A model generated the notes under the pieces. It saw nothing but the letters and a program-made list of their open reading frames with translations. It had not been told where the DNA came from and made no database searches. A DNA stretch of 52,047 nt, from the IMG/VR virus record IMGVR_UViG_3300046780_000286, positions 1 to 52,047 of that record. One strand, written 5' to 3'. This document shows, piece after piece, positions 11,983 to 40,730 of the stretch (its first letter is position 1; every line of letters starts with the position of its first letter). Made by a program: the position numbers and the translations under genes. Source of the stretch: a virus.

Positions 11983-12488
11983 TTTTTAATTAGTCTAGCT
12001 GCTTGCTTCTCTGCATGTTTTAGGCTACCGCAAGATTTGCATGTACCTTGTAAGCCGGTAGGTACACTCCTATTCTGTGAAAAATCTGCCTTATCTTTTA
12101 CCAATTTACATTGTGGGCACCATTTACTAAGTTCATTTATCTTAGTATAGTCAGACCAAGCACACTTTGTGTTTCCATGCGCAGTATTACATGAGCAACA
12201 AATCCATGAGACTTCTCCACTTTGCCAGTGTTGCAAGGAGATAACATCGCCATGATAACCCAGTTCCCTATTCCAAATCATTTCTCGATTGCATTCGCTA
12301 CAGCGCATATCATGCGGAATAATACTCATGAGATACTCGAAACTTGGCGTAACTTTTCCATAGGATTTTGAGCTTCTCATTGCTACTAACACACGATAAT
12401 GTCTATAGCAATAATCACAGCAACCTTGTGTTCTAACACCCAGTTCGAGAATACCCATTTTAACACACTTAGGACAATAGTCTTTCAT
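11979..12488 (-). CDS. HNH-like zinc-binding protein
   Basis: A 169-aa protein with several CxxC pairs: YCPKC near the N-terminus, CCDYC, CSEC, CCSC, CPQC and CKSC. The segment from CSECNREM through ISLQHWQSGE to CCSCNTAHG follows the treble-clef layout of HNH/endonuclease VII nucleases (CxxC, then a His where DH is usual, then LCxxCN). The usual Asp before the catalytic His is a Gln here (QH), so activity is uncertain. It overlaps the upstream ATPase gene by ATGA. It could be a phage recombination or homing-type nuclease, or only a zinc-structured DNA-binding protein. Confidence 0.5.
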   Translation of the reverse strand: MKDYCPKCVKMGILELGVRTQGCCDYCYRHYRVLVAMRSSKSYGKVTPSFEYLMSIIPHDMRCSECNREMIWNRELGYHGDVISLQHWQSGEVSWICCSCNTAHGNTKCAWSDYTKINELSKWCPQCKLVKDKADFSQNRSVPTGLQGTCKSCGSLKHAEKQAARLIKK

Positions 12489-13711
12489 GTAGTCAGTTTG
12501 ATTTTATTTTTAGAAACTTTCCCTTCTTTATCTACGGTAATAGCTCCTGCTGCCTGTAGATCATTAGTCACTTCTACGAATTCTGTCATCGTTAATTTGA
12601 GCATGAACGGAGGATAAAGGTTACCAAGACTCATTGGCCTGTCCTCCAATTCTAGTCTCTTTAACAGCATTTGTTTAACCTCAGCCGAATCGTTTCTAGC
12701 CACAGGATTGAACGGCAAATGCATGTTCCTTTCAACCGATTTGAGAAACTCAATCGCAGCCTTTACCGAGGATAATTGTATTTCCATTTCAGTCGATTCA
12801 GAGAAATGATAAGCCATCGAAAACTTCATTACGTGCACCTGCTTAGACTGATAATAATCCTTTAGAAAAGGCGACTTGTTTGTAATCCATTTTGATTCAT
12901 CTGAAAACCATTCAGTTACATAGGCCATTGCCTCAGGTGAAAATGTAACCGGTCCATAAAGCTTTGATAGCTTAAGTGTGTGCTTTAGGAATTCCATCCT
13001 AGACCTAAGTTGATCTTCTGTGTGTGGTGGAATAAGAAACATTCTAGATCGTGGAACTGATTCGTAGATCATAATGCTTCTACGCAGAAACCCTGATCCA
13101 ATTACCTTGGCTCCTCTGATATCTGAGAATGTATCAGGCTGAGTACCTCCAAGAATGTTTACACAGAGGTTTGTAATACAACGTTCACCGGCGCCGATTT
13201 TATCATCGACGTATCTACTTGCACAGTCCCAACCTTCAAGAAGAAACGTCATAGTTTCCTGCGCCTGATGTTTGAAGACTGACGTGAGTTCCGCAAGGAT
13301 AAACGCCGCGCTTGCGTGCGTATACGGGGGCTGTACCGAGGAGACAAATTGTGGATGTCTAGCGAGAACGTCCATGAATTTCTCCCTGCTCGTACTTGTC
13401 GCCGAGATCGGGTACATGTACTGCGGGGTACCAGTGCTCTGGCCGACCGGTTTCCCGTGCTTGTCGTAGAACCCAAGTGTTTCCCTGACATCCTTTACTA
13501 TGTCCTTGCCAACTCCTGGGTCCGCTATAAACCAGACGTATTGATTCGGGAATACGATCTTGCCAGAGTTTATCCAAACCCTTCGTTGGAGACAGGCAGC
13601 TATCGTAAAAAGCCACGAGGCTGTAATGTAGCTTTCGGGTGAGGGATAGAACTGGCAATACCGACGCCAGTGGGAAAGGTTTGTTTGCACCGGCTGCTGT
13701 GAAAGTGACAT
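12485..13711 (-). CDS. DUF3987-like P-loop ATPase / helicase-like protein
   Basis: A 408-aa protein. Residues about 59-68 give a Walker A-like loop (ADPGVGKD) in which Asp replaces the usual Ser/Thr. The segment NILGGTQPDTF followed by IGSGFLRRSIMIYE matches the arrangement of DUF3987 proteins (GGIQPD, then GLLSRF), which are linked to phage replication modules. A winged-helix-like C-terminus is plausible. In the same operon as the split polymerase, it is the best candidate for the replicative ATPase, because no DnaB-type helicase or primase is visible elsewhere. Confidence 0.55.
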   Translation of the reverse strand: MSLSQQPVQTNLSHWRRYCQFYPSPESYITASWLFTIAACLQRRVWINSGKIVFPNQYVWFIADPGVGKDIVKDVRETLGFYDKHGKPVGQSTGTPQYMYPISATSTSREKFMDVLARHPQFVSSVQPPYTHASAAFILAELTSVFKHQAQETMTFLLEGWDCASRYVDDKIGAGERCITNLCVNILGGTQPDTFSDIRGAKVIGSGFLRRSIMIYESVPRSRMFLIPPHTEDQLRSRMEFLKHTLKLSKLYGPVTFSPEAMAYVTEWFSDESKWITNKSPFLKDYYQSKQVHVMKFSMAYHFSESTEMEIQLSSVKAAIEFLKSVERNMHLPFNPVARNDSAEVKQMLLKRLELEDRPMSLGNLYPPFMLKLTMTEFVEVTNDLQAAGAITVDKEGKVSKNKIKLTT

Positions 13712-13723
13712 GTGATTTAGTTT

Positions 13724-13921
13724 TCACTTCGTAAGTGTTTCAATTAGACCTACCGCAAAGTCGCCCGGAAACTCAGCAGGCAGTTCCGTTACTTTAAGTC
13801 CATAGATATGGCTAGGCGAATTCGTTTCCACGTAGGATAGGAACACGTGTGTCGCGTCGACGCCATGCTTGGCTCGGAATTCGCCTTTGGCTTGGAGGAT
13901 TTTTGCGAGGAGGGAGGTCAT
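13724..13921 (-). CDS. Hypothetical 65-aa protein
   Basis: A small protein beginning MTSLLAKILQAKGEF with a KHGVDATHVFLSY segment. Its start overlaps the stop of the upstream 59-aa gene (ATGA), so it is translationally coupled. No family is recognised. Confidence 0.6.
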   Translation of the reverse strand: MTSLLAKILQAKGEFRAKHGVDATHVFLSYVETNSPSHIYGLKVTELPAEFPGDFAVGLIETLTK

Positions 13922-14097
13922 GATACGTTGTATCCACGTTCGATTAAGAATCGTTTTTGCTCTTGGAATTCTTCCTCACTCAAACGAGGTTTTGTCTGAT
14001 CGAAAATTAGGCAAGAACCAATCGCACCAGTGACTGGATAATACAGAAGCTCTGCATATTCAGGATTCGGAATCCATTCTTTCTTCTCATCACTCAT
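13918..14097 (-). CDS. Hypothetical 59-aa protein
   Basis: A short gene joined by ATGA overlaps both to the polymerase palm gene upstream (14094) and to the 65-aa gene downstream. The protein starts MSDEKKEWIPNPEYAEL and ends in a charged helix (EEEFQEQKRFLIERG). The tight coupling on both sides supports a real gene. Function is unknown. Confidence 0.6.
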   Translation of the reverse strand: MSDEKKEWIPNPEYAELLYYPVTGAIGSCLIFDQTKPRLSEEEFQEQKRFLIERGYNVS

Positions 14098-15092
14098 AGT
14101 TGTATTTCTTTCATCCCAATCGGGTTATGTTCTTCATCATAGTGGCCCCAGTTCTTACCCACAGCCACCGATGATTTCATCCTAAAGCTTTTACCGTCTC
14201 GTCCAACTAAGACGAAAGACTTGATTGCATCCGAAGCAACCTTAGCAGCCTCGTTAATCTCCACGTCGGGAACCTCTAGCAAGATTGAATCATGTTTTTG
14301 GTTCAAGAGATTCCAGCGCTTGTTCTCACGTTGGATGTAATCTTCCACGATGAAGATTGCCTCTGTCGAAAGACAACCCACAGTTGACTGAGGTATCCAA
14401 GAGATAATCTCGCGTTCGTATGAAGGCGTAAAGATTCTTTCAAAGCGCCTAGGATAGCCGAACATATTCACAAGTTCGCGATACTTCTTTGCCATGAATA
14501 TGACCTCCGTTTGCCACTGTTTAATCTCAGGAAAGAGCTTATGGAACATCTCAAGGAACACCTTAGCCTCGGCTGCAGTCATAATCAAAGCACCCTTGGA
14601 TTGCTTCAAGGCGTTGTCCATAAAAGTTTTCCAACCACCGCCATAAGAAGACATATGGACTACCATCTTGCCGACTTTGTAGGGCTTGCCGGAGTTCGCT
14701 ATCCTAGACTTGAGCGTTTTCCAATGAGGTAGTTTAACGAGTTCGCTTGGGGTTAGCTCCGCGAGATAGACTTCTTTAGGAAGAATGCCCGCGAACCATT
14801 GCGGATTCGTTGCTGCGAAAAGATGCAGCGCGATTAAGGTATGTGGTTTCTCACCTACGTTCAACAGGTCTAGATAACGACCGGCCGGGGCTAGATTCGC
14901 GACGACTGCTGACTCGGCGCCGGATTGGTCTGGCTGGACGAAGAAACATCCTTGACGAGCTTGAAGCAGGCAGAGAATTTCTTCGTCAGGATTCTGGAGA
15001 TTTAGTCCTTGGTCGAATAGCTGGCTAGACGACAAGCGGTACGATTTTGTGCCCGCTACTTTGAACGTGCAGATCGCGCGAGGGAGGCTCAT
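14094..15092 (-). CDS. Family A DNA polymerase, palm and fingers half
   Basis: A 332-aa protein holding the polymerase core. The RLSSSQLFDQGLNLQNP stretch (19-35) matches the RLSSxxPNLQN start of the Pol I palm. Motif A is QPDQSGAES with Asp55, Ser57 and Glu60. Motif B has Lys142 and seven residues later Tyr150-Gly151. Motif C is KHDSI with His267-Asp268, Ser replacing the usual Glu. The usual Arg after motif A is absent. The exonuclease and thumb are encoded separately at 15294..16679, with a zinc-ribbon gene between. All three core motifs are present, so the half should be active when assembled with its partner. Confidence 0.88.
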   Translation of the reverse strand: MSLPRAICTFKVAGTKSYRLSSSQLFDQGLNLQNPDEEILCLLQARQGCFFVQPDQSGAESAVVANLAPAGRYLDLLNVGEKPHTLIALHLFAATNPQWFAGILPKEVYLAELTPSELVKLPHWKTLKSRIANSGKPYKVGKMVVHMSSYGGGWKTFMDNALKQSKGALIMTAAEAKVFLEMFHKLFPEIKQWQTEVIFMAKKYRELVNMFGYPRRFERIFTPSYEREIISWIPQSTVGCLSTEAIFIVEDYIQRENKRWNLLNQKHDSILLEVPDVEINEAAKVASDAIKSFVLVGRDGKSFRMKSSVAVGKNWGHYDEEHNPIGMKEIQL

Positions 15093-15099
15093 GGGTTAC

Positions 15100-15288
15100 T
15101 TATGAAACTTTTTCCCAACCACAATTTCCACAATGGTTTATTACTCGATCGCTCATGGAAATTCTTGCTATTCTATCTCCACACTCCGGGCACCGTTCGC
15201 TCGGTTTAACATAGCCAACTTGCCAAGGATACTTAGCAGGCTGTTCTTCTGGTTGGTCACCAGCACAATGTATGTCTCGGTCGGTCAT
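15100..15288 (-). CDS. Zinc-ribbon protein between the polymerase halves
   Basis: A 62-aa protein with two CxxC knuckles (CPECGD and CGNCGW) about 20 residues apart, a classic zinc ribbon. It has 5-7 nt gaps to the polymerase exonuclease gene upstream and the palm gene downstream. Its place suggests it was inserted into, or helps connect, the split polymerase. The partner is unknown. Confidence 0.7.
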   Translation of the reverse strand: MTDRDIHCAGDQPEEQPAKYPWQVGYVKPSERCPECGDRIARISMSDRVINHCGNCGWEKVS

Positions 15289-15293
15289 AGCTG

Positions 15294-16679
15294 TTACCTT
15301 TCTTCAATTCTGTAATACGGCTTAAACTTAAGCAAGTCACGACATTTAAGAACCTCTCTCAACGCAAGCAAAACCCTAATGCTAACGACACGAGGATTCT
15401 TAACAGCGAGAGAATACATAGCATCGGCAGCGGTTGAGTCTTTCTCGGCGGCGGTTTGATAAGTGGAAGTCAGGCCGAGTTGCTTGAAGAAATACTCACC
15501 TAGCTGTTGCGGCGAGGAGACTAGGACGGAACTCCCGGCTAGCATCTGGAACACACGAGTAAGTCCTCTAATCTTTGTCTCTAGCTGTCTTAGTTTAGCC
15601 GCGCGCAAGTCTTCGCGAAACTCGAACCCCGTAAAGCCAGCCCTTAGGTAAATCTCTAGTGACCTATTCGCGGAATCAACTGAAGCTTTTAGTCCCGGTC
15701 TAGCTTCTATATAGCTTCGTTGAGCTAGATACACAGCTCTAGTCGCGAGTACATCAAGTGCGTTATATCTGAGAAGCTGTTGATATTGGTGGTGATTCCT
15801 AGGATACCATGTTCCTGCAGCATCCTTGTGATAGGGAACATTGATCCAGAAAGAGATAACGTGACCAAGAGACTTTTCACTCTCCGGAAAAACGCGATGG
15901 TGCTGGATCATAGTATCTCTTAGATTTGGTCCCCAAGGAATCCCATGGAACATCGCGAGAAATCCTAGGTCAAAAGAGATGTTATGGCCGACAATCACGC
16001 AGCGTTTAAAAGCTCTAGTCAGAGCGGCAAAGAAACGCGGTGGTTGCTTAAGACTACCGTCGTAATTATAGACCGGAATCGAATAAACTGGTCCGGTTTC
16101 TCTAGAGATGGCTAGACATTGTACGACACTAGCCGAGGGCCAAGTTTCGATATCGATGAACAATAACTCACCCGCTTTGAAGCTATCTAGATACCCGGCT
16201 AGATCGGCGTTCCAGATGATATCTTCTTTGTAACCCGAGCGACGTTCATTAAGCAAGAGTTTTCTTATATCGCTCATTGCCCAAAATCGGTAGTTCGCAC
16301 GCGAGGTAATAGATAGGTCTTTGCTGTTGTCAGAGTCTGATCCAGAACCTTCGTCATCTTCATTATCCCACTCGCCATTGAAGGCTTCGGCGCAGTCGAT
16401 AGGGTTGAATGTGGCGACAATGTTGGAAGCCCGCGCGGTGTGGACGTAGCCTCTGAGAGTGGTGATATCTTGGGGTTTGCCACGCCACCTACTAGCTGCT
16501 GGAAAGCCGCAGAGAATCACTGGCCTACCAATACTAGCTGGGTGATAATCTAAATCATCAGTCACGTCGAAATCGCCGCCTATTGCCTCTGCGAGAAAGT
16601 CCGCTGATGGACCGCAGAGCAAGGTGTTCGAGGCTCGGGCGAATCTATCTCTAGACGAAAGAACTACAAGCGGTTTCAT
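15294..16679 (-). CDS. Family A DNA polymerase, 3'-5' exonuclease and thumb half
   Basis: A 461-aa protein. Exo I is FIDIET (Asp176, Glu178), Exo II is GHNISFDLGF (Asp237), and Exo III is YNALD (Tyr305, Asp309). All catalytic residues are present. The C-terminal part (SSPQQLGEYFFKQLGL to LREVLKCRDLLKFKPYY) is the thumb, ending where the palm would begin. The N-terminal ~140 residues form an extra domain with LRGYVH and VATFNPIDCAE, loosely like the uracil-glycosylase-type domain found at the N-terminus of some phage polymerases; this is tentative. An acidic linker (about 104-122) follows it. It overlaps the upstream small gene by ATGA. Confidence 0.87.
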   Translation of the reverse strand: MKPLVVLSSRDRFARASNTLLCGPSADFLAEAIGGDFDVTDDLDYHPASIGRPVILCGFPAASRWRGKPQDITTLRGYVHTARASNIVATFNPIDCAEAFNGEWDNEDDEGSGSDSDNSKDLSITSRANYRFWAMSDIRKLLLNERRSGYKEDIIWNADLAGYLDSFKAGELLFIDIETWPSASVVQCLAISRETGPVYSIPVYNYDGSLKQPPRFFAALTRAFKRCVIVGHNISFDLGFLAMFHGIPWGPNLRDTMIQHHRVFPESEKSLGHVISFWINVPYHKDAAGTWYPRNHHQYQQLLRYNALDVLATRAVYLAQRSYIEARPGLKASVDSANRSLEIYLRAGFTGFEFREDLRAAKLRQLETKIRGLTRVFQMLAGSSVLVSSPQQLGEYFFKQLGLTSTYQTAAEKDSTAADAMYSLAVKNPRVVSIRVLLALREVLKCRDLLKFKPYYRIEER

Positions 16680-17492: not shown

Positions 17493-17843
17493 TTAGAGGG
17501 AAATTCGCTGAGTAATTTCTTTCAACTTACAGTCAATACTTTTGATACTTTTGTAGACGTTGAACAGCTTGATAGAAATATTGCACCCGATAGGTTCTGG
17601 TGTTAAAGGAATGCTATCAGGAGGTGAGGGAATAGTAAGCGCTGGACCAAGCTTATCGCACAGATGCTCTAGTTTTTCGGCTAGAAAATTCATCTCGTTC
17701 TCTAGGATACCTAGCAACTCTGTTACTCGCATCTCGGCATTGATTGGCTTACTTTCTGCCAAGGAGTTTACAAGCTTTGTAGTATCTTGATAGGGATAAT
17801 AGGGTGCATTTTGCCCACCAAGTTTAGCAGAAATGTTACTCAT
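17493..17843 (-). CDS. Hypothetical 116-aa coiled-coil protein
   Basis: A protein with a helical middle (VTELLGILENEMNFLAEKLEHL), a Pro-rich linker (PSPPDSIPLTPEP) and a second short helix. There is no recognised domain. Its start overlaps the stop of the GroES-like gene (ATGA). A small hairpin (CCCTCT/AGAGGG) overlaps its stop codon. Confidence 0.6.
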   Translation of the reverse strand: MSNISAKLGGQNAPYYPYQDTTKLVNSLAESKPINAEMRVTELLGILENEMNFLAEKLEHLCDKLGPALTIPSPPDSIPLTPEPIGCNISIKLFNVYKSIKSIDCKLKEITQRISL

Positions 17844-18136
17844 TTCTTAATCCTCCGCATCACCGCAAAGATTTCTTCTTCCTTAAGAACCCTATGAAGC
17901 ACAGAGCCAACCATAAACGGTGTCCCGGCATGAACGCTATGGATCACTCGATCCCCTACGCAAGCATGATACGGACCGTCTGCGGTTCCAAGTTCGACAA
18001 CTTCTGATTCAAGTTGCGCGACGCGTTGCTCTACGGAATCGGGAATTAGGATCAGTCCGACGTGTTTAGCCTTAGGCGTATCCTTAACTAGATACTTTTT
18101 ACCGGCTGCAAATACTTCAAATCCTTCGTGTTTCAT
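17840..18136 (-). CDS. GroES-like co-chaperonin
   Basis: A 98-aa protein, the length of bacterial GroES (about 97 aa). The order of GroES elements is visible: a first strand (KKYLVKDTP), a GLILIPDS segment in the place of the mobile loop, then SEVVELG (as in GEVLAVG), ACVGDRVI (as in KVGDIVIF), and EEEIFAVM near the end (as in SDILAIV). Known phage versions (T4 gp31 and relatives) replace host GroES so that host GroEL can fold the capsid protein. No GroEL is encoded here, so use of the host chaperonin is inferred. Confidence 0.72.
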   Translation of the reverse strand: MKHEGFEVFAAGKKYLVKDTPKAKHVGLILIPDSVEQRVAQLESEVVELGTADGPYHACVGDRVIHSVHAGTPFMVGSVLHRVLKEEEIFAVMRRIKK

Positions 18137-19150: not shown

Positions 19151-20068
19151 TTATTTTTCAGTTGTATTTTTTCCATGCTGCCTAGGATCATGTGTCCTAG
19201 TCAGAAAGAGTTTGTCTTTAATCACATCGTACATTTCCGTACGCGCATGACAGAGAACATTGTAATCACACCTAGGACAGAGGTTCTTAATCCAGCCGTC
19301 GCGATTAGGAGATTCGTCGGAGAGAATTGGCAAGAGCATCCTTGAGAGAAGGTCCCTAAGCTCCATTTCAAAATCCGCGAAGACTTCCTCCGTGAAAGAT
19401 TTTGCGTCGCCGACTTTCCACTTTGCGGGTTTAGTCGTCAAGTGGCCTATGACAGGAGTTGAAGTAATCTTAAGCGACCTAGCCGCATCGGCCATTGTCT
19501 TATCAGAGAAGATATTATAGGCGAACTTCCACAAGACCCAAGGATAGAAGATGAACTGCACATCGTTATTGTATCCGGCAAGTGCTTCTTCGGACTTCCA
19601 TTTTTTCGTGGTCTTATAATCAAAAACTCTCAACGTATCGTTCGTAAAGGACAGATGATCCATCGTGCCGCAGACTAGAATCGTGTAGCGTTTTCCAGCA
19701 ACTACGGTTTCTAGCCACGGAACCTCGAAGTAGAATTCTTCAGCCGATTTACCGAAGATAACTGCTGGCGCTGGAAGTAGGTTCGAGGGGTATGCGGAAC
19801 AGAGTCCGACTACTAGACGCTCGTCAACAGCTGTGGACTTTGCGTAATCCGTAGCCGCTTTCAACGCACCTAGCATGTCCTCGCGTTGCTTAGAAATGAA
19901 CAGATGAACGGAGGTTCCTAGCGCGTAGGATTCGTTGATAGCTTTAGTGCGTAGTCCTTTAAGTGTGAACGAGAAAGCGGTCTGGCAAAAAGATTTCTTT
20001 AGCAACGATGCATCAACCCTAATGACGGTTGAATCTGGTGCGATAGTTTCGGTGAAGGTAAATGTCAT
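19151..20068 (-). CDS. Cas4/RecB-like PD-(D/E)XK nuclease with Fe-S cysteines
   Basis: A 305-aa protein. Motifs in order: Cys28; GTSVH with His55; GTMDH with Asp137; FDYKTTK with Asp150 and Lys152; the QFIFYP helix (Gln171, Tyr175); and Cys264, Cys267 and Cys273 near the C-terminus. One N-terminal and three C-terminal cysteines form the iron-sulphur cluster of the AddB/Cas4 nuclease type. It is expected to resect DNA ends to feed the Sak4/SSB pair downstream. All catalytic positions are intact. Confidence 0.82.
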   Translation of the reverse strand: MTFTFTETIAPDSTVIRVDASLLKKSFCQTAFSFTLKGLRTKAINESYALGTSVHLFISKQREDMLGALKAATDYAKSTAVDERLVVGLCSAYPSNLLPAPAVIFGKSAEEFYFEVPWLETVVAGKRYTILVCGTMDHLSFTNDTLRVFDYKTTKKWKSEEALAGYNNDVQFIFYPWVLWKFAYNIFSDKTMADAARSLKITSTPVIGHLTTKPAKWKVGDAKSFTEEVFADFEMELRDLLSRMLLPILSDESPNRDGWIKNLCPRCDYNVLCHARTEMYDVIKDKLFLTRTHDPRQHGKNTTEK

Positions 20069-21393: not shown

Positions 21394-22305
21394 TTATAAG
21401 TCTCGAAGACATTCTTCTAATGACATGCCTAGTATGTAAAATCGCACTAGATACGATTCAATTCCCCTAACATTTCCTTCCTCATAACAAGCTCTCGGAA
21501 TTATCTCGTCGCCGGCTTCGACGCGTTTATCTAGGTCTTTATCAAAGACATCCTTGATCCCTAGGTTATCAGCGATCCTGCTTGCGATTGGAATGACATC
21601 GAGAGGTCTATCGCGTAGAGGAGTTGTGCGTAGAACGATCTTGTTGATTCGATGGTACAAGTCACTCCTGAACTCACCCTTCGCGATCATGTCCTTAAGG
21701 TTCTTGTTCGTGGCGAAGACGAACTTGCACTCGACCGTATACTCGGAACTGCCACCTACGGCACGAGCCTGACGAGTTTGAAGAACCCTTAGCAACTTCG
21801 TTTGTTGATTAGGCGGTAGATCACCAACCTCGTCGAAGAAAAGCGTACCAGTTCCAGCCGTTCTGAAGAGACCCTCGGTGGAGTGGTCTGCGCCAGTGAA
21901 CGCGCCTTTCGTGTGACCGAAAAGTAGAGACTCGAATAGACTATCAACAATCCCTGAACAATTCACTGCATGAAAAGAATCCTTCGTGACGATTGTAGTC
22001 CGTCCGATGATTTTCTGCTCATTGTTATTGCCATGGAAGATTCTAGCTAGGAGTTCTTTGCCTGTGCCAGTTTCGCCAAGAATTAATACGGGAAAGTCGA
22101 ACTCGCTAGCATCACGAGCGATTTCTACTACGCGCAACATGGCTGGATCGTAGGTAACGAATTCCGCGATGGCAAGTTTTTGCGGGGTCGGTGCGATCGT
22201 GATGCCTTGACGACGCGCGGCTCCGGCTAGGATGCTATTGACATCGGCGACGGTCTTAGGTGCGACAGGTGTAGTTAAAGTGTCGGCGAATTTGGTTAGT
22301 TTCAT
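21394..22305 (-). CDS. Sigma-54 activator (bEBP) AAA+ protein, stand-alone domain
   Basis: A 303-aa protein with the full NtrC-type AAA+ core: Walker A GETGTGKE (77-84); the sigma-54-contacting loop GAFTGA (134-139); Walker B TLFFDEVGDLP (154-164); sensor I ATN (198-200); arginine fingers in FRSDLYHRI (212, 219); and sensor II GNVRGIE (278-284). Known proteins with this loop remodel the sigma-54 RNA polymerase closed complex with ATP. The N-terminal ~45 residues are too short for a receiver or GAF domain, and there is no C-terminal Fis/HTH domain, so it should be constitutive and act without its own DNA site. It overlaps the helicase gene by ATGA. Its target is host sigma-54, as no sigma factor is encoded. 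Confidence 0.9.
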   Translation of the reverse strand: MKLTKFADTLTTPVAPKTVADVNSILAGAARRQGITIAPTPQKLAIAEFVTYDPAMLRVVEIARDASEFDFPVLILGETGTGKELLARIFHGNNNEQKIIGRTTIVTKDSFHAVNCSGIVDSLFESLLFGHTKGAFTGADHSTEGLFRTAGTGTLFFDEVGDLPPNQQTKLLRVLQTRQARAVGGSSEYTVECKFVFATNKNLKDMIAKGEFRSDLYHRINKIVLRTTPLRDRPLDVIPIASRIADNLGIKDVFDKDLDKRVEAGDEIIPRACYEEGNVRGIESYLVRFYILGMSLEECLRDL

Positions 22306-24509
22306 TCTTCTTCCTCCTCATCAGAATCTTCGTCTGTTATGATCTCTCCGATTTCGACTGCGACTGGTTCGGACAATTTATAGTCCAAAGGTTTGAGTTT
22401 TTCTTTAGCGGCTGCGTCCGCGAGTTTAGATTCTAGGTCTAGGTCTAGGCCAGTAGAAGCCGTAAGTGACGTGAGTTTCTTTACGAGAATAGGTACAACA
22501 TGTTCAGTTACGATCGTTCCCTCGAACAAGACCATCCATTGATATGCATCTGATAAAGTATATTCTCGGTAGATGCGTCCGAATCCTTGCACGAATTCTT
22601 CGGCATAATAACACGGAAACGCGAGCATCGTCCTAGGCCTGACGGTTTCGATCTGTTGATCTAGGTCTAGTCCTGTGCCGGCTTTAGACAAGGTACCAAT
22701 GCAGAACTCCGTTCGGCCTTCTTGGAAGTTGTCGATCTCATCCTGAAGTCCTTCATCGCTCTGAGCATAAAGCTTCATGGTCTTGAGCCACTTGTCCATG
22801 TCCGCCTGTTCCTCGGCAGAACGCTCGGTCTTCATGGCGGTGTTCCAATATTTTGTGGAACGATTATACTTCGCCCGCGCTTTCTTATCGGTCCAGACGA
22901 AGTTTTCATCGGTGGAAACTTTATGATGTTGACGCATCCAGTCATAGACCGACAAGCAGTTCTCGGCTGTGATGTTTGGTTCGCCGCCGTAGATAACGCT
23001 GATACGAGAGCGATCTATACCCCTTTTTGCAAACTCCATAAGGCACATCTTGATAGTCTCCTTATAGCTGCACATGATAACTGGCGCTCGGCCTTTGCCG
23101 TGTTCGATCATCGCGAGTTCGACAACGGACTCGGCGCCTTCGCGCTCGGCGGCTTGTCGGAAATTCCCAAACGCCGTGAGACGTGCGGCCCAGTCGTCTG
23201 GCTCCTTACCATTTTTGCGGCAGAGTTCTAGCCACTTTTCTTGCGCGCGTTCGTAGCGATCCTGAGATTCTTTAGTCTTGAAGTGGATGAACTTAACGCC
23301 GTTGTAGGACTTATGTTTCCTGGGGTCAGCAGGTGGATTAACTATTGCGGAAGCTACGCGATCATAATAGGAGAAGATATTTGCGACGGTATGTTCACCC
23401 CTAACGAGTCGTGTTAGACTTCCTTCACCAACTTGCCGACCGAAGTTCGGCCAAGAGATATCATCTACGATCGAACCACCCCAAGAAAGCTGACTCGCGA
23501 GACCGAAAAGCTTGAGATCTTCGCCGATGATGGCTGGCGTGGCAGACATGAAAAGGAACTTCGTACTTGGGGAGATAAAACCTAGTGCCCTTTTAAATGC
23601 CGCTGAGCCCTTGCGTTTGAGCTTATGGCTCTCGTCGAAGATTACAAGCGCAGGTTTTCCTAGCTTGAATTTGAATGCTTGTTCTGGTTCGTTGTTATAG
23701 GGATTAACCCTAGTGTATTCGGTAAAGAGTTCTCTCATCGAGGAAGACCTCAATTCGGAATAGGTCCTAACGATGATGTCATTCTCTAGATGCTGTCCCA
23801 ATCCACAGCGTATTAGTTCGCGAGTGAACTTGATCTTCGTAGCTTTCGGTACGATACATATGACATTCCACAGCGGCATGTTCTTGCCGTTTCCGAAACC
23901 GTAATAGTCATTTTTAAGGAGATCATCAATGACTGCGGCGGCTATGATAGTCTTGCCAGTACCAGTTCCAAGTGGCAAGAGTACCGAGGAGGACTTGCGC
24001 TGGACGAAAAGAGCGTGTCGGATTTTGAACAGACATTTCTTTTGCCTAGGTTTAAGAGTCCTAGCACCTAGCTTTACTGTTCCGAGTTCATCGGATGTGG
24101 GAATTTTGACTGGTCCATCAGGCGTGTACACGACGTCGGTTTTAACGTCGAAGTTAGCAACTGGTGCAGGTTCTACGAAAGACTTCTGCGACTCTGTCAC
24201 GGCCATCTCGACAAAATGGTCGCAGAATTTGAGCACGTTTAGATAGGTGCAAGGAATAGACTTGAACGAGATAGGAACGACTACGCTGTACCTAACAGTT
24301 AGATCATCCCAGGATTTGAACCTGATATCTTTCGCGTAATTCGCTATTGCTTTTGTCCTAGCGACCGCTGCTGAGCGTGCGGCGGCGGTGTTTTGATCGT
24401 CTAACGAGAGACTAGAATGTGACGATGGCTGACTAGCCTTCTTGCTAGGCGCTACTGGAATCTTGCTAGGAATACTAGCTGACACTAGACCGCTTCGGAT
24501 TATTTTCAT
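22302..24509 (-). CDS. SF2 DNA helicase
   Basis: A 735-aa protein. Walker A GTGTGKT (181-187), DESH (292-295), motif III SATP (322-325), and motif VI-like QGFGRIYRE near residue 670, preceded by GTLSKAGTGLDLD. The DESH box and layout match phage SF2 helicases related to the UvsW/A18 type. The N-terminal 60 residues are Ser/Ala/Lys-rich and probably disordered; the last 15 are almost all Asp/Glu. It is likely used for branch migration or replication. It overlaps both neighbours by ATGA. Confidence 0.85.
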   Translation of the reverse strand: MKIIRSGLVSASIPSKIPVAPSKKASQPSSHSSLSLDDQNTAAARSAAVARTKAIANYAKDIRFKSWDDLTVRYSVVVPISFKSIPCTYLNVLKFCDHFVEMAVTESQKSFVEPAPVANFDVKTDVVYTPDGPVKIPTSDELGTVKLGARTLKPRQKKCLFKIRHALFVQRKSSSVLLPLGTGTGKTIIAAAVIDDLLKNDYYGFGNGKNMPLWNVICIVPKATKIKFTRELIRCGLGQHLENDIIVRTYSELRSSSMRELFTEYTRVNPYNNEPEQAFKFKLGKPALVIFDESHKLKRKGSAAFKRALGFISPSTKFLFMSATPAIIGEDLKLFGLASQLSWGGSIVDDISWPNFGRQVGEGSLTRLVRGEHTVANIFSYYDRVASAIVNPPADPRKHKSYNGVKFIHFKTKESQDRYERAQEKWLELCRKNGKEPDDWAARLTAFGNFRQAAEREGAESVVELAMIEHGKGRAPVIMCSYKETIKMCLMEFAKRGIDRSRISVIYGGEPNITAENCLSVYDWMRQHHKVSTDENFVWTDKKARAKYNRSTKYWNTAMKTERSAEEQADMDKWLKTMKLYAQSDEGLQDEIDNFQEGRTEFCIGTLSKAGTGLDLDQQIETVRPRTMLAFPCYYAEEFVQGFGRIYREYTLSDAYQWMVLFEGTIVTEHVVPILVKKLTSLTASTGLDLDLESKLADAAAKEKLKPLDYKLSEPVAVEIGEIITDEDSDEEEEE

Positions 24510-25542: not shown

Positions 25543-26196
25543 TTAGGCTACGACCGTCTCAGTCTTAGCGGCCTTATCGGCAGCGACCTTCGCGGCCTTC
25601 TTCTCGCGCATGGACTTCGACTTCTGCTCCTTCGCAGCGAGCAACTCCTTCTGAAGCAGCGCAAGATCGCGCGAACGCTGGATAAGCGCCTTGCCTTCCT
25701 GCGCGAACGTGACCGAGTTCTGACCGCGCTCCTTGAGTAGAGCCTCGAAGCCGTCAGGATTGAGCAACTGCTCCTGAAGGTCAGACATGTGCTGCGTGAG
25801 CGCAGATGTGAGAGCCGCTTGCTGGGACTCAACCTCTTTCAATGAGGTCTTAGCAATAGCAACGCTAACGAACGCAGAAACAATCTTGTCCTCAAAGATC
25901 GCGCCATCCTTGGAGAAGACGATCTCGGCAACGTCGTCGAAGTAATCGCCGAAAATCTTGCTGAACAAGACCTTGCCGGAGTCGGCAGTGTGCGAGTCGG
26001 CTTCGTTCAAAACCGCCGTGAGGAAAGAACCGGCGGCGGTGTTGTCTTCGAGGATCGGCTCAAGAGTGACGTTCTCAGGAATAGTCCCGTCCTTCTTCTT
26101 GCGACCCTGCGTGATGATCTCTTCAAAGTCAAAGACGATTCCGTCAAAAGTGGCCGGAACGGTTGAGACTTCTTGATTATTGGTATCTTCTGACAT
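25543..26196 (-). CDS. Hypothetical 217-aa protein with Lys/Ala-rich coiled tail
   Basis: The N-terminal half is acidic (ATFDGIVFDFEEIITQG). Residues about 120-200 form a coiled coil (SQQAALTSALTQHMSDLQEQ). The C-terminus is a Lys/Ala-rich tail (REKKAAKVAADKAAK) like those of DNA-binding or scaffold proteins. It has its own terminator and a long A-rich leader with the perfect palindrome TACTGCGCAGTA (26227-26238), so it looks separately regulated. No family recognised. Confidence 0.6.
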   Translation of the reverse strand: MSEDTNNQEVSTVPATFDGIVFDFEEIITQGRKKKDGTIPENVTLEPILEDNTAAGSFLTAVLNEADSHTADSGKVLFSKIFGDYFDDVAEIVFSKDGAIFEDKIVSAFVSVAIAKTSLKEVESQQAALTSALTQHMSDLQEQLLNPDGFEALLKERGQNSVTFAQEGKALIQRSRDLALLQKELLAAKEQKSKSMREKKAAKVAADKAAKTETVVA

Positions 26197-32476: not shown

Positions 32477-32479
32477 AAC

Positions 32480-32930
32480 TTTTCAGGCTCTGCAATCCCT
32501 TTGGCTAGTGCTATCTCACGTCTATTTGACGCGCCATAGTCTATGCTCAACTGGTTGCCTGAACTTTACAATCTGCTCCGACAGTCCGATGCCTTGTTGC
32601 CAAGTCTGTTACTCGGCCCAAGGTCAAATTCCTGCCACGCTTTGGAAATAGGCTCTACTGCCCGGCCGTCGTGCTTGCGCCCGCTAGAATCATCATAGTC
32701 TAGCATTCCTCCGCACGCTGACACTATTTCACTCGCGTTTGGTTCCCGGTGGTTACGGGTTCCCTGCGTGTCAAAACTCACGCCAGCATTTAAGCGCGCT
32801 GGCTAATGACTCGCGCAGGGACTATCCCGCGCCGTCTTTTCGCTTCAAGACTTCTAACAGCACTCGCTGCTAAGGTCTGACAAAGAGGCTAAACTTGTTA
32901 GCCTCCGTTGTCAAATCTTAGTTCCTACAA
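32480..32930 (-). ncRNA. Large structured non-coding region B
   Basis: There is no credible gene in 450 nt. Hairpins include GAGGCTAA/TTAGCCTC, GCCAGC/GCTGGC, GCGC-(GGGA/TCCC)-GCGC, CCCG-GTGGTTA-CGGG inside TGACAC/GTGTCA, GCTAGA/TCTAGC, GTCTT/AAGAC and CGTC/GACG. It shares the 16-mer CCTTGTTGCCAAGTCT with region A (at 31768 and 32595). It may be a second ornate RNA, or region A and B may be one RNA split by the 152-aa gene. Confidence 0.55.
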
Positions 32931-33008
32931 AGCTAGCCTCACAACTACAAAGCAAAAACCGGCGATTACGAAACAAGCTCCAATAATTCCTATCTGCTCT
33001 ATTTTTTG

Positions 33009-33046
33009 CACGTCACGAAGCTAGAGTCTTTTTCTCGACGTGTCAA
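33009..33046 (-). promoter_or_regulatory. Putative early minus-strand promoter with inverted repeat
   Basis: On the minus strand TTGACA (33046-33041) is followed after 17 nt by TAGCTT. The element is bracketed by CACGTC/GACGTG arms (33009-33014 and 33037-33042), an operator-like arrangement. The -35 is perfect and the -10 is weak. It lies just upstream of region B. Confidence 0.4.
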
Positions 33047-33229
33047 AATCTTTTCGCGTTTATTTCACTCGCCCAGCTCTAACTTGTTCTCTAGCAATAT
33101 CTTGCCTAGGGCTAAAAATCTCACTTTAACTCGCGAATAAATTTGGCACGGTTCTAATTTCATTCCTTTGTTCACTCTACTTGCTTTCTTGGCTCATTTT
33201 CGTGCATTTTGCAAGATTTCTCACAAAAG

Positions 33230-33480
33230 AGAGTGTTTTTGCTTCATAAATGGCTGAAAGTGAAGGTTTTAGCTCTTTTTTCATTAAAAAAGTTCTAAAG
33301 GTTATAGGTTTTATATATATATATATATGTATATATATTTTAATATACTAGAATTCTTCTACTAATTATTTTATTATTTTATTTTCGCCTCTTTTGACAT
33401 TTCAAACTCCTTCTCAACAGAATCTTTTTAATCTTCTCACAAGTAAACTTACAAACGTGAATAAGTTCCATATAGGAACA
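33230..33480. other. AT-rich divergent region, replication origin candidate
   Basis: It separates the two transcription arms. It has a cruciform-forming repeat (TTTAG..CTTTTTT-CATT-AAAAAAG..CTAAA, 33268-33299), a nearly pure TA tract (33310-33352), and the palindrome GTTCC-ATATA-GGAAC (33465-33479). Such AT tracts act as DNA-unwinding elements. The rest of 33047-33751 has no gene I can support, only AT-rich sequence and likely promoters for both arms. Confidence 0.5.
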
Positions 33481-33751
33481 CAAGTCGTTACCTAGCAGAG
33501 ACTTAGCAAAGTCCTAACAAAGTAACATAACCATCTTGAGTAGCATACTCGTTGTGTTTTCATAAGTGAACAAGTCTGTCTCAATCCTAACTAACCCGCG
33601 CAAGATACTCATGATTGGGCTACACCAACCCCAGAAAGGCGATGCGGAATACTACTAATCGTTCTAAAAAATTTACATCAATTTTAGAAACCTAGGGACA
33701 TTAACAGCTAGAACCTATTGGCATAGATCATGCAAAGAAAACGTAGCAAAG

Positions 33752-34381
33752 ATGAAGATCATCAAAAGCACCGGTTCGGAAGAAGCCGTTACAATAGAAG
33801 ACTTGCGAGCATTCATGCCGGCGCCCAGTACGAATTTCAAATCGCGAGAGATTGAACAAGAAACCGAAAAGCCCTTAGTTGAAACAGCAGTCGAAGTAAC
33901 TGAACCCACCGGCGCCCTCCCCGCGCCCGTCGCCGTTTCAACAAGAAAACATCCCAACGTCGAAGCAATCGTCAACGCCTACGAAGGTGAAGGGATTTCG
34001 GTTGATAACATCGCACAGATGTTCGATTGGGAAGCTTCTCTCGTAAGGATCATTCTCGCACAAAAGTCCAAGCTATACCGAATCCAAGAGAATGTCAACA
34101 CTGATGGATCAAAATTCGAGTTAGTATCTGATGAAGACTTTTTCGAGATTAAAGATGCGTTTCTCACGATGGTTAAAAGCGAGAACGTTCTCAAACCCGC
34201 AGATCGAGCTAAGAATATGCGATGGCTTCTTGACGAGAAGAAGGGTCGCAATGATGCAATCAAAACCGCGCCCGTTACCAATAACATCGTTTCTCTTAAC
34301 CAGTTCATTAAGTCGAACCGTGAGAAGTACGAAAAACGGATCGAGCGATTGAGAGGCTCGAAAGAGGCCATTGAAGCATGA
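33752..34381 (+). CDS. terS: Terminase small subunit
   Basis: A 209-aa protein overlapping the large terminase by ATGA. Residues 70-115 (HPNVEAIVNAYEGEGISVDN and following) form a helix-turn-helix, as expected for packaging-site recognition. The C-terminal third is basic and helical (FIKSNREKYEKRIERLRGSK), suited to large-subunit contact. Assignment is by HTH, size and position; sequence identity to known subunits is not evident. Confidence 0.7.
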   Translation: MKIIKSTGSEEAVTIEDLRAFMPAPSTNFKSREIEQETEKPLVETAVEVTEPTGALPAPVAVSTRKHPNVEAIVNAYEGEGISVDNIAQMFDWEASLVRIILAQKSKLYRIQENVNTDGSKFELVSDEDFFEIKDAFLTMVKSENVLKPADRAKNMRWLLDEKKGRNDAIKTAPVTNNIVSLNQFIKSNREKYEKRIERLRGSKEAIEA

Positions 34382-36159
34382 GCTTCGACGCGAATGACTC
34401 TGAAGGTTTTGCAACGCATGACGAGTTTCTCTCGATCATGCGCAAAAAGATTGACGGGAACAATCATGTCGTGGAAGAACCTCCACCGGCGCGAGCAACC
34501 CGAAAAGCCAGCGAGAACATGGAGGTCCCCTCAAAAGGTCTCCATGATTTCTCCGGGAACAAAGAATATGAACCACTTGAATTCGCATCTGCTTACGAGT
34601 TCATGCTAACGTATCACGACGAGTTCGAGTTGTACGATTGGCAGATCGAGGAACTAGAAAGACTCTCCGGTTGGAACGAAGAAACTGGAACATACATCCA
34701 ACCTACGTCTGTCGAGCCAATGCAGTACTCTCTCGCAGCAGCAAACGGCTCTGGTAAGGATAACGTGCTCATAGCAGGATTTATCTTGTGGTTCTTAGCC
34801 ACTAAGACACACGGCCAAGTTCGTGTCACTTCTAACACCGCGGCACAAATCGACGCGCAGACATTCGCGCACGCGAAATACTATGCGCAGAAAATTAACC
34901 GCTCTGGAGTCTATGGCGAAGAGCTATTCCAAATTAAACACCTCCATATCGAATGTGAACGTACTGGGGCGAAATGCCTTATGTTCGTCACGAATGAAGC
35001 TGGACGCGCGGAAGGCTTTCACGCCAAGTTCGGAAACCCCTTTGCAGTTATCATCAACGAAGCTAAATCTATCGACGACGCCTTGTTTGGTGGATTTGTT
35101 CGTTACACAGGCTGGACGCATTGGATAGAAATCTCTTCAACAGGATACCGACGTGGACACTTCTACCGTAAATTTACTTCGCCAGAAGCTCTCTCATATC
35201 CGAAACCACTCCAATATGGCATTCTGTGGAATCGAAAAATCAAGGCTAGTGATTGCCCGCATATCATGTCGGGCAAAGCGCGAATCGCCGAGATCATGCG
35301 TGATTTCGGATCGGACAGCATCGAATACCATTCCGCAATCGCAAGCGAGTTCTCAGACGGGTCGTCAAATGACATTCTGATTAAGGGCAAGTACTGTGAA
35401 TATGCTGATCCAAAAGAAGACACATACGGATTACCGAAAGTCGCTGGTGTCGATTTATCTCTCGGCGGAGATGAAACCGTAGTGAGCATTTGGCAAGGAA
35501 ACTACAGGGTTGCACAAGTTTGTCTCAAGGAGCGCTACGAGCCCACGTTACACTTTCGTCTCATAGAGATTTTCAAAGAGCATGAACTCTTGCCGGAGAA
35601 CATCATCGCAGATGCAGGCGGTCTAGGAAAGCCAATCATCCACAGACTTGCTGAGGCAGGCTGGCCCGTTGACATGTTCAACTTCGGAGGTTCCGCTAGG
35701 AACAAATCGTACTACACGAACATCGGCGCCGAGCTATGGATGATAGTGAAAAGGCTAGTCGAGGAGAAGCTAATAGTCCTGCCAAGAATGGACTACAAAT
35801 TGCTAGAGCAATTAACCTCGCGTAGGTACGACACGTTGTCAGGGAAGATCAAACTTGAGTCGAAAGAAGATGTTCGTTCAAGAGGTGAGGATTCTCCCGA
35901 TCGTGCCGACGCGATGATAATGGCGTGGAGTCGTTATGATATTGATGCTTTTCGAGCTCTGGCGAAACCCGGATCGGTTAAAGGTGCTAAGCCGTTGCCG
36001 AATACGCGTACGGCGCCGGAGCCAGTCTCGTTCAATTTCCAAGCGATACAAGCTGAGATGGAACGGCGGCGAGAATCCGGCGCGGGAATTACTTTTGGTG
36101 GTCAACGTAGTAAACAACGTAGAGGAGGATTTATATGGGCTATGACAAATTGTCGATGA
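34378..36159 (+). CDS. terL: Terminase large subunit
   Basis: A 593-aa packaging motor. The Walker A loop is AANGSGKDN (121-129), with Asp in place of Ser/Thr. A VIINEAKSIDD strand takes the Walker B place (Asn-Glu rather than Asp-Glu). The nuclease domain begins GVDLSLGGDE and continues with IIADAGGLGKP and DRADAMIMAW near the end, the usual three acidic clusters. It converts procapsids to full heads together with the portal encoded downstream. Confidence 0.88.
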   Translation: MSFDANDSEGFATHDEFLSIMRKKIDGNNHVVEEPPPARATRKASENMEVPSKGLHDFSGNKEYEPLEFASAYEFMLTYHDEFELYDWQIEELERLSGWNEETGTYIQPTSVEPMQYSLAAANGSGKDNVLIAGFILWFLATKTHGQVRVTSNTAAQIDAQTFAHAKYYAQKINRSGVYGEELFQIKHLHIECERTGAKCLMFVTNEAGRAEGFHAKFGNPFAVIINEAKSIDDALFGGFVRYTGWTHWIEISSTGYRRGHFYRKFTSPEALSYPKPLQYGILWNRKIKASDCPHIMSGKARIAEIMRDFGSDSIEYHSAIASEFSDGSSNDILIKGKYCEYADPKEDTYGLPKVAGVDLSLGGDETVVSIWQGNYRVAQVCLKERYEPTLHFRLIEIFKEHELLPENIIADAGGLGKPIIHRLAEAGWPVDMFNFGGSARNKSYYTNIGAELWMIVKRLVEEKLIVLPRMDYKLLEQLTSRRYDTLSGKIKLESKEDVRSRGEDSPDRADAMIMAWSRYDIDAFRALAKPGSVKGAKPLPNTRTAPEPVSFNFQAIQAEMERRRESGAGITFGGQRSKQRRGGFIWAMTNCR

Positions 36160-36427: not shown

Positions 36428-38308
36428 ATGAACGAACTCAACACCAACAGCGCCGGTGTCGCTGCAGTTCAAGCGCCGGCGATAATCTCTTTGTCGAACT
36501 TCTCGCGGTTTAAGCAGTACTTCACAACTCTCTACGAAGGATTCAATGAAAGTGTCATTAACGACCAGTGGAATGCTAGGAACATCCGGCGGCTGGAGGT
36601 CTCAGTCGATTCGCTCCAGCAGTCGGGCAAGCTCGAAGCAGACGAAACCTACATCCCCGTCCGAATCATTGACCGAAACGTCAAAGCGCGAATGCCTAGT
36701 CGACTTGCCTATCTCAAGTCAGCCAATCGCCTCGCCATCTTTGAAGCGCAATTCTCGCTCGAAGCCATCGATATCCAGCCCAACACCTCACGACTCGAAT
36801 CCGAATTCTGGCGAGTCCTCACCTACGACAACTGGGAAACATCCTACATCGCTTCCTCAGACGGAGCCGAGTTTGTCGGATGGAACTGGCTCGAAGTCCT
36901 CTACACGCCGACGGAAGGTTACGAAGGCCACTGCGGAATCTTCCAAGTCGGACGCGAAAACCTGATCTTCGACACCGGAGTAGATGACATTCAGAAATCT
37001 AAAATCGTCGTAAAGCGAATTCCGATCACACTTGTCACGCTTGCAGAATACGCAAAAGTCTTCGCGTTCAAGCCAGCATTCGTAGCGAAATTGATGGAGC
37101 AAGTCAATCTTGTCGATACCAATTCCGGGCCTGGGAGCGCGAGCTATGATAACGCAGATGACTCATGCATCTACATCTTTCGAGCATTTTGGAAAGAAGG
37201 CGGAGTTGTTAAAACCGCTTTCTACGCCGACGACCTAGAAGACTGGCTCAACGATCCGCACGATTTTTACAATGGCGTTGACAAGGAAGTTGAACAAGCT
37301 CCAGTAGTTCAGCCGGGTTCGCTAGTTCCAGAAGCCACGAAAGTCTGGCAAAAGGAACCTTCGCGAGAATATCCTTTCGTACCGGTTCTTAGGTCAATCA
37401 CAGAAGACTTGCGCATAGCACAGACACAGGGTTCCGTTTCGGCTGATTACGGAATCCAAGAAGCAGCTTGTTCCGTGTTCTCAGCACTGGTCAACATGGG
37501 CAATAGACACGCGCAGACCATGTGGTCGCCGGCTGGTGACAATTATGACAAGACCGGCGCTCCAAAGCAGCTTTCGATGAAGCTTGAACGCGGGCAAATT
37601 TGGGATCGTCCAATGGCTGCATTCTCCACGCCGCCACCAGACTCCACGCTTCCGAACATCATTCAAGCTCTTGAACAGTGCAACGCGCAGAATAACCAAC
37701 AGATCGCATGGGCAGTTAATAACCGTAAGGATTCTAGAAAAACCGCAACCGAAGTCGGCGAAGCGGCAAGGACTCAGTCCGAGATCAACTCGTCCGAGAC
37801 GTTCATGTTTAGCATGTGTCTTAGGCAAGCATGGTCTATGGCTTGGCCAATCATCCAGTCGCAAGCGTTGCAAGGATTGATTGTGTTTTGTCCCATGCCT
37901 GACGGTACGAACGACGTAGAGTTGATTCGCAAGTCCTACAAGCTCAAAGCCGCCGGCGATACTGATTACGTTGAGAAGCAAAAGACAATCGTGAACATGC
38001 AGCAAGACATGCCTACCATGTTGCCGACGCCGGCGGGGCCAATGTTCCTAACGCATTATCTTAGACTCAGATATCCTGCTGAAGCGGATACCTACATCAA
38101 AGCACTCGATGCACAACGTGCGCAAGAAGAACAACAAAAGAACGCTTTGTTGAAAACCGCCGTTACTGACCCGCACACAGGTGAACTCGAACCGGAGTTC
38201 CAGCCATATCAGGCACAAATCGCACAGATGCTAGCACCGAAGCAAGCTGGCGCTAAGACTAGTCAGCAACAACCCCAACAATCTCCCCCGCAGCAACAAG
38301 CAGCATAA
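36428..38308 (+). CDS. Portal protein
   Basis: A 626-aa protein between terminase and scaffold, the size of podoviral portals. It has a helical N-terminal stem (FSRFKQYFTTLYEGFNESVI), a beta-rich wing with LEVLYTPTEGYEGHCGIFQV, and a long helical C-terminus with a Gln/Pro-rich tail (QQQPQQSPPQQQ). Assignment rests on position, length and fold pattern. Confidence 0.75.
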   Translation: MNELNTNSAGVAAVQAPAIISLSNFSRFKQYFTTLYEGFNESVINDQWNARNIRRLEVSVDSLQQSGKLEADETYIPVRIIDRNVKARMPSRLAYLKSANRLAIFEAQFSLEAIDIQPNTSRLESEFWRVLTYDNWETSYIASSDGAEFVGWNWLEVLYTPTEGYEGHCGIFQVGRENLIFDTGVDDIQKSKIVVKRIPITLVTLAEYAKVFAFKPAFVAKLMEQVNLVDTNSGPGSASYDNADDSCIYIFRAFWKEGGVVKTAFYADDLEDWLNDPHDFYNGVDKEVEQAPVVQPGSLVPEATKVWQKEPSREYPFVPVLRSITEDLRIAQTQGSVSADYGIQEAACSVFSALVNMGNRHAQTMWSPAGDNYDKTGAPKQLSMKLERGQIWDRPMAAFSTPPPDSTLPNIIQALEQCNAQNNQQIAWAVNNRKDSRKTATEVGEAARTQSEINSSETFMFSMCLRQAWSMAWPIIQSQALQGLIVFCPMPDGTNDVELIRKSYKLKAAGDTDYVEKQKTIVNMQQDMPTMLPTPAGPMFLTHYLRLRYPAEADTYIKALDAQRAQEEQQKNALLKTAVTDPHTGELEPEFQPYQAQIAQMLAPKQAGAKTSQQQPQQSPPQQQAA

Positions 38309-38318
38309 AACAACAAAT

Positions 38319-38573
38319 ATGAATGTAACAATGAGAGACGCGATTGCGTCTGTAAAACCAGTAGAAGAAACATCGCCGAAGGAATTGACTGATTATCAGG
38401 TTTGGTTGACTCATCCACAGACGAAGCGATTTAAAGCTATGCTAGAATCTGCACGACAAGACTTTCTTGAACGCGCGGAAAAAGCCAACATGACTGATAA
38501 TGATGAACATGTCAAAGCTTGCCTTGCTTCGGCTCTGACTCTTAACAACATTATTCATATCAATCTCGTTTAA
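38319..38573 (+). CDS. Hypothetical 84-aa head-cluster protein
   Basis: A helical protein (MNVTMRDAIASVKPVEETSP, DYQVWLTHPQTKRFK). The leader is A-rich (AAAACAACAAAT). The stop overlaps the scaffold start (TAATG). Small genes at this place sometimes encode head accessory proteins. Confidence 0.6.
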   Translation: MNVTMRDAIASVKPVEETSPKELTDYQVWLTHPQTKRFKAMLESARQDFLERAEKANMTDNDEHVKACLASALTLNNIIHINLV

Positions 38574-40527: not shown

Positions 40528-40544
40528 TTGGCACGAATAAAGCT
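40528..40544 (+). promoter_or_regulatory. Sigma-54-like promoter ahead of the capsid gene
   Basis: It reads TTGGCACG, four bases, then AAGCT. The -24 part matches the sigma-54 consensus TTGGCACG exactly. GG (40530-40531) and GC (40542-40543) are separated by 10 nt, the required spacing. The -12 box is imperfect (AAGCT against TTGCA). It lies in the intergenic gap 187 nt before the capsid start, in a phage that encodes a sigma-54 activator. Confidence 0.45.
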
Positions 40545-40592
40545 AATCATCTCTCAAGCGATAAATTCGCAAACGACAATCGGAGTAAGTTA

Positions 40593-40694: not shown

Positions 40695-40730
40695 CGCGAA
40701 ACAGTAGCTAATCAGTTAACACTAAATAAT

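Follow-up and report, generated by a model that had tools for sequence, protein, structure and literature searches.

A stand-alone sigma-54 activator probably times middle and late gene expression in a lineage of uncultured tailed phages

Introduction

What does an activator of sigma-54-dependent transcription do in the genome of a tailed phage? Textbook phages take over the sigma-70 holoenzyme, bring a polymerase of their own, or antiterminate. The sigma-54 holoenzyme waits on its promoters in a closed, silent state that only an ATPase can open, and we know of no phage previously known to command this host system. The question arises from a 52,047-base IMG/VR record (the window, i.e., the whole stretch of DNA analyzed), in which a first-pass annotation had read one gene as a stand-alone sigma-54 activator, and had suggested that a virulent phage lacking its own polymerase could use it to redirect the host sigma-54 holoenzyme to its late genes.

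Results

The window encodes a sigma-54 activator without flanking domains

The gene and the motifs of its product, with residues that are invariant among 44 phage homologs, are as follows:

21394-22305, minus strand: stand-alone sigma-54 activator (bEBP), 303 aa; assigned from Pfam, PDB sequence and fold matches, and orthologs
22054-22077, minus strand: Walker A GETGTGKE, residues 77-84; G77, G80, G82, and K83 invariant
21889-21906, minus strand: L1 loop GAFTGA, residues 134-139, the sigma-54-contacting signature
21829-21846, minus strand: Walker B TLFFDE, residues 154-159; D158 and E159 invariant
21649-21669, minus strand: arginine fingers RSDLYHR (R213, R219); both invariant
21466-21477, minus strand: sensor II GNVR (R280); N278 and R280 invariant

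All of these motifs were read in the translation, and the annotated complete NtrC-type AAA+ domain with GAFTGA, Walker A and B, arginine fingers, and sensor II is thereby confirmed. In full, the L1 loop reads GHTKGAFTGA (residues 130-139) and the arginine fingers lie within FRSDLYHRI; among the 44 homologs the loop is mostly G[AS][FY]TG[AC], with G134 and T137 invariant. The profile search that had been proposed for this gene matched Sigma54_activat with E = 2e-54 (184 bits against a cut-off of 20.2), and the overlapping Sigma54_activ_2 is the sole other trusted Pfam domain. At E < 0.001, PDB sequence matches are exclusively to bEBPs, of which NtrC1 is the best.

The protein departs from the classical bEBP plan of regulatory domain, AAA+ domain, and HTH in that both flanks are missing. 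No Pfam match to a receiver, GAF, or HTH domain was obtained in the 303 residues, and only about 45 residues, mostly modeled with low confidence, precede the AAA+ domain. An AlphaFold model built with the 44 phage homologs is otherwise confident (pLDDT 87.6, pTM 0.82); in this model residues 1-19 are disordered and the sensor II helix is followed almost at once by the end of the chain, so that an HTH would not fit. The earlier reading that receiver, GAF, and DNA-binding domains are absent agrees with both results. Foldseek ranked the central domains of FleQ, NtrC4, NtrC1, and FlrC first (E ~1e-20). On the strength of sequence and predicted fold, the protein is a genuine bEBP with a complete activator domain.

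The activator gene belongs to a conserved replication module

Searching viral contigs with single sequences, either the bEBP or the neighboring helicase, returned zero confirmed relatives. Alignment-based searches identified first 23 and later, by tblastn, 244 relatives; among the loci kept, stand-alone bEBP copies of 213-304 aa occur on about 74 IMG/VR contigs. Nearly all adjoin homologs of helicase, PDDEXK exonuclease, AAA_24, DNA polymerase A, or DUF3987 genes, and a bEBP ortholog is present in every relative genome that we looked at. Near-complete contigs of the lineage are mostly 47-56 kb. In a tree of 34 phage and 19 cellular proteins, the phage bEBPs all fall on one side of a single branch (support 93/68; 96% of bootstraps), a one-clade statement that holds against the 19 cellular bEBPs sampled. 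The window protein groups in a sub-clade with those of L048, L049, and L052. The corresponding module of the window comprises:

22302-24509, minus strand: ResIII/DEAD helicase that overlaps and precedes the bEBP gene; Pfam ResIII E = 5e-12, syntenic beside the bEBP in relatives
19151-20068, minus strand: PDDEXK exonuclease of the replication module; Pfam PDDEXK_1 E = 1.7e-11, syntenic
12485-16679, minus strand: DUF3987 primase/helicase-like gene and split DNA polymerase A, the rest of the conserved module; orthologs in relatives

Within this block, DNA polymerase A (14094-16679, minus strand) is split into polN (15294-16679) and polC (14094-15092), and a zinc-ribbon ORF (15100-15288) sits between the two. 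The split is common to many relatives, with gaps of up to 1.7 kb, and others have one gene of about 800 aa. A Cpn10/GroES-like chaperonin homolog is also found in the replication block (17840-18136, minus strand).

No member of the lineage was recognized in a collection of 50,697 phage records. The bEBP matches in that collection were rejected as phage genes, as they mostly look like bacterial DNA (annotated glnG, atoC, prpR, or zraR). The one clear phage match, MT121960, was also set aside, given its unrelated synteny and lack of promoters. Separately, eight viral contigs (L019-L026) carry a portal (Phage_portal_3) fused to a Sigma54_activat AAA+ domain and an AAA lid, for example at 8291-10627 in L020 and 8348-10612 in L023, the latter with an HTH_17 match between the portal and AAA+ parts. 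The GAFTGA loop is absent from these fusions, and the joining of a portal to a transcription-activator ATPase is a very odd architecture.

Sigma-54-type promoters recur at fixed positions in relatives

We counted all 4-mer pairs at spacings of 3-20 in the noncoding DNA of seven relatives, assuming no consensus. The top dyad was TGGC-N8-TGCT / GGCA-N7-TGCT, with 37 occurrences against 1.7-1.9 expected (p ~1e-35). The same dyad again ranked top in 25 further loci outside the training set (47 against 3.4-3.6 expected; p ~1e-35). Judged by its sequence, TGGC-N8-TGCT is the -24/-12 element of sigma-54 promoters.

A promoter matrix was trained on 36 noncoding sites taken from relatives only. Across the 25 loci, 54 sites scored at least 15 bits, compared with 4.1 in shuffles, and 44 of the 54 were noncoding, though noncoding sequence makes up just 25% of this DNA. 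At the same threshold, relatives G002-G007 contain 5-10 sites per genome; lambda and T7 have 0, T1 has 1, and viral DNA without the replication module has about 0.5 per 50 kb.

The predicted promoters are also placed consistently. Conserved site positions, namely before the terminase operon, before the major capsid gene, or just past the bEBP gene, were found in 18 of 19 near-complete genomes, and most of the 19 have both a site before TerS/TerL and a site within a few hundred bases past the bEBP gene. Ahead of the capsid gene, a site of at least 15 bits is present in 17 of the 19 (borderline in G024, at 15.0 bits), mostly 130-160 nt and overall about 130-200 nt upstream. In 12 genomes outside training, the placement before the capsid gene is by itself far from a chance result, in a test that overlaps in part with that of the 25 loci, since some of the 12 are full contigs of those loci. 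A shared upstream enhancer was not clearly found: common 9-mers were within the shuffled range in seven of eight genomes and above it in one. Rfam searches around the promoters gave no match.

The window carries a reduced or altered set of predicted promoters

Two predicted promoters and one weaker candidate can be recognized in the window:

33719-33734, plus strand: predicted sigma-54-type promoter TGGCATAGATCATGCA before the terminase operon; best window site, 16.1 bits with the relatives-only matrix
40529-40544, plus strand: predicted sigma-54-type promoter TGGCACGAATAAAGCT before the major capsid gene; second-best window site, 15.1 bits
26279-26294, minus strand: candidate sigma-54-type promoter TGGCATACCTCCAGCT before ORF 25543-26196; noncoding, weaker at 11.5 bits, -12 element AGC

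The position of the 33719 site matches that in relatives, and none of 4000 shuffles of its interval reached 15 bits. The 40529 site, which the first-pass annotation had placed at 40528, does exist; its position is common to 17 of 19 genomes, and 3 of 4000 interval shuffles reached 15 bits. In shuffles of the whole window, two sites of at least 15 bits arose in 2.5%. A naive IUPAC consensus scan of the window gave no sigma-54 excess (21 sites against 23 expected) and a first generic matrix found nothing significant in it; the window sites are significant only with the matrix from relatives together with position.

The nearest complete relative of the window, G032, has no site of at least 15 bits and only a 10.7-bit site before its capsid gene. 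The -12 element is AGC rather than TGC in the window, in G032 (L136-L138), and in L048 (e.g., TGGCACGCCCATAGCT and TGGCATACCTCCAGCT), and on these sequences the sub-clade of the window seems to have switched its -12 element to AGC; possibly this variant follows a host sigma-54 with an altered preference. The window therefore counts as a divergent member of the lineage, whose predicted promoters, only two or three of them recognizable, form a reduced or altered set. This divergence is the main weakness of the promoter case, together with the very short leader implied for the 33719 promoter, of only about 7 nt before the annotated ATG.

The genes downstream of the two plus-strand promoters, for which orthologs were labeled with iterated profiles, are:

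33752-34381, plus strand: putative small terminase (TerS); orthologous family directly before TerL in relatives, gene order
34378-36159, plus strand: large terminase (TerL); ortholog in all genomes, Walker A and nuclease motifs read in the sequence
36428-38308, plus strand: putative portal protein; orthologs in G002-G007 right after TerL, gene order
38573-39910, plus strand: scaffold-like gene between portal and capsid; orthologs in G002-G007, gene order
40731-42029, plus strand: major capsid protein; orthologs in all genomes

Against PDB, the TerL profile weakly matched a phage terminase gp2 nuclease domain (E = 0.04). A low-confidence model of the capsid protein (pLDDT 50) had phage major capsid proteins of the N4-gp56 family as its first matches (E = 8e-5). 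PDB searches with the capsid and portal profiles gave nothing useful, the portal being without a match. These results lend weak independent support to the terminase and capsid identities, and those of the portal and scaffold follow gene order.

Other features lie around these promoters. Just before the capsid promoter, 40199-40525 (plus strand) encodes a small protein with a match at the cut-off to the Acb2/Tad1 hairpin domain (E = 4.7e-6), a possible anti-CBASS/anti-Thoeris protein. The leader past the 40529 promoter (40545-40720) contains strong inverted repeats, GTCTCTA..TAGAGAC and ACGCCAACG..CGTTGGCGT, followed by T-rich DNA, and perhaps forms a leader RNA or attenuator ahead of the capsid gene; Rfam had no match for it. 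Between the leftward and rightward gene blocks lies a 1.2-kb region with little coding sequence (32477-33718), rich in TATATA and with sigma-70-like sites; it is likely an early promoter region or origin.

The phages probably depend on host sigma-54

An RpoN DNA-binding domain was found in none of 29 phage records, and the phage therefore probably relies on host sigma-54. The earlier claim that the phage has no polymerase of its own holds for single-subunit (T7-type) enzymes, the type that the search covered: PF00940 was absent from G000, G002-G007, and nine more records, and the T7 control was positive. A search for a tyrosine integrase found none.

We also searched a cellular collection (genome_contigs) with the DNA polymerase for a host; it returned MAG contigs only, one from Methanoregulaceae and three weak. 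The former, L123 (JACTVG010000013.1), is binned in a Methanoregulaceae archaeon MAG and is probably a misbinned phage, as it carries the polymerase of this lineage and a bEBP like that of this phage family.

Discussion

These observations are best explained by a phage-encoded, constitutively active, enhancer-independent activator that very probably opens the host sigma-54 holoenzyme at phage promoters. The suggested redirection of that holoenzyme to phage late genes draws strong support from the genomic linkage, the top noncoding motif, and the fixed promoter placement, and from searches that found no RpoN, T7-type RNA polymerase, or tyrosine integrase. We would refine the late-gene reading: as predicted from promoter positions, this is a middle-plus-late switch, because its targets in most relatives also include the block of replication/recombination genes that immediately follows the bEBP gene.

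In the mechanism that we propose, the bEBP gene, which lies among the leftward replication genes, is probably an early gene read by the host housekeeping holoenzyme. Its product would assemble as an AAA+ ring whose GAFTGA loop contacts host sigma-54, and ATP hydrolysis by the ring would open closed E-sigma-54 on the phage -24/-12 promoters. In the window, the 33719 promoter would serve the terminase/portal operon and the 40529 promoter the major capsid gene, with the 26279 promoter possibly driving a leftward gene; in most relatives, the extra promoter just past the bEBP gene would serve recombination and replication genes. Since the activator lacks a regulatory domain, it would need no signal, and its synthesis would set the time of the switch. 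Lacking a DNA-binding domain, it would act from solution in the manner of laboratory-tested truncated bEBPs. The appearance of an early-made, always-on activator would then fire the middle and late promoters together.

The main departure from this model to be weighed concerns targeting. The activator might be brought to phage promoters by another DNA-binding protein, of phage or host origin, or by joining a host bEBP in a mixed ring; this variant, itself compatible with our explanation, would suit a protein that has no DNA-binding domain when most characterized bEBPs use enhancers. We consider it unlikely, given that no clear shared sequence was found upstream of the promoters and that action from solution suffices for known truncated bEBPs. 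The AAA+ fragment of DctD (DctD250) alone activates many sigma-54 promoters from solution, with no enhancer or signal (PMC3844500). An early-made, always-on activator that needs no enhancer is the simplest account, and the one that we prefer. Counting against it, AAA+ activators that stand alone tend to be weaker than those bound to an enhancer (PMC3844500). The promiscuity of such activators (DctD250; PMC3844500) also means that they would act on host promoters, and the protein might mainly reprogram the host by activating its sigma-54 genes for nitrogen or envelope stress, with phage promoters not the main target. The phages' own sigma-54 promoters are many, and lie ahead of terminase, capsid, and replication genes, which makes this very unlikely.

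The location of the gene between those for a helicase and an exonuclease would suit an AAA+ ATPase that was recruited as a replication or recombination remodeler, such as a helicase loader, and lost its role in transcription. This is, if anything, slightly less probable: deep divergence has left the GAFTGA-type L1 loop and every catalytic residue in place, and sigma-54 promoters co-occur with the activator, with few of them in viral DNA that lacks the module. Least probable of all is that the TGGCAY-N6-TGCT repeat is a mere look-alike of sigma-54 promoters with another regulatory role or one in packaging. The promoters are predictions from sequence, yet the GG-N10-GC core, the spacing, and the flanking consensus are all as in sigma-54 promoters, 72 of 79 noncoding sites have the correct orientation toward the next gene, and the repeat accompanies a sigma-54 activator.

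Promoter opening by the phage's own activator remains our preferred reading. We think it likely that a globally distributed tailed-phage lineage times its middle and late expression via an enhancer-independent sigma-54 activator of its own, with the host holoenzyme as its de facto late RNA polymerase; put more broadly, a widespread uncultured lineage probably runs its life cycle through the host sigma-54 transcription system. Because the sigma-54 holoenzyme is silent until opened, a phage that supplies the ATPase would obtain a tight, leak-free late switch with one small protein. If true, phage transcription strategies would gain a new class, and bEBPs a naturally occurring family pared to the bare AAA+ engine; an entire phage lineage would need host rpoN in order to infect, which should have testable consequences for resistance and host range. 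The family would also supply many natural minimal activators for the study of enhancer-free bEBP action, and uncharacterized phage contigs may gain a readable promoter map.

Phage takeover of host RNA polymerase is exemplified by T4 AsiA/MotA/gp55, SPO1 gp28, and lambda Q; T7 instead supplies an RNA polymerase. All are, like the proposed activator, phage-made regulators that time middle or late genes. Unlike the sigma-54 route proposed here, they replace sigma-70, antiterminate, or supply a polymerase, and to our knowledge none works via the ATP-dependent sigma-54 route. The first-pass annotation named no earlier description of this strategy for tailed phages; consistent with this, neither a phage-encoded sigma-54 activator nor a sigma-54 late regulon appeared in the literature that we searched, which was mostly outside subscription journals. 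Phage capture of host RNA polymerase is of a known kind, and its sigma-54 route, as far as we have seen, had not previously been described.

At the protein level, phrog_7998 and the MT121960 protein (Phage DP SC_2_H4_2017) are, like the window bEBP, phage AAA+ proteins of the sigma-54-activator type. The MT121960 protein shows an identity of only about 36%, its Walker A is changed to GETGTDKE, and it forms a long branch outside the phage clade; unlike the window lineage, its genome stretch has no sigma-54 sites. The AAA+ domains of PspF, NtrC, FleQ, and NtrC1 share the fold and all catalytic and sigma-54-contact motifs with the phage protein, but these proteins have a C-terminal HTH and usually an N-terminal control domain, neither of which it has. 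Architectures without both flanks are rare, since FleT is the only known bEBP to lack them (PMC7175178); CtcC of Chlamydia has no DNA-binding domain (PMC12282069). FleT and CtcC thus resemble the phage protein as AAA+ sigma-54 activators without a DNA-binding domain of their own, but are chromosomal regulators, whereas the phage bEBP belongs to the core genes of its phage lineage and has phage promoters as its predicted targets. The closest parallel in architecture is DctD250, which likewise consists of the AAA+ domain only: it is an engineered laboratory truncation, whereas the phage protein would be its natural and conserved equivalent.
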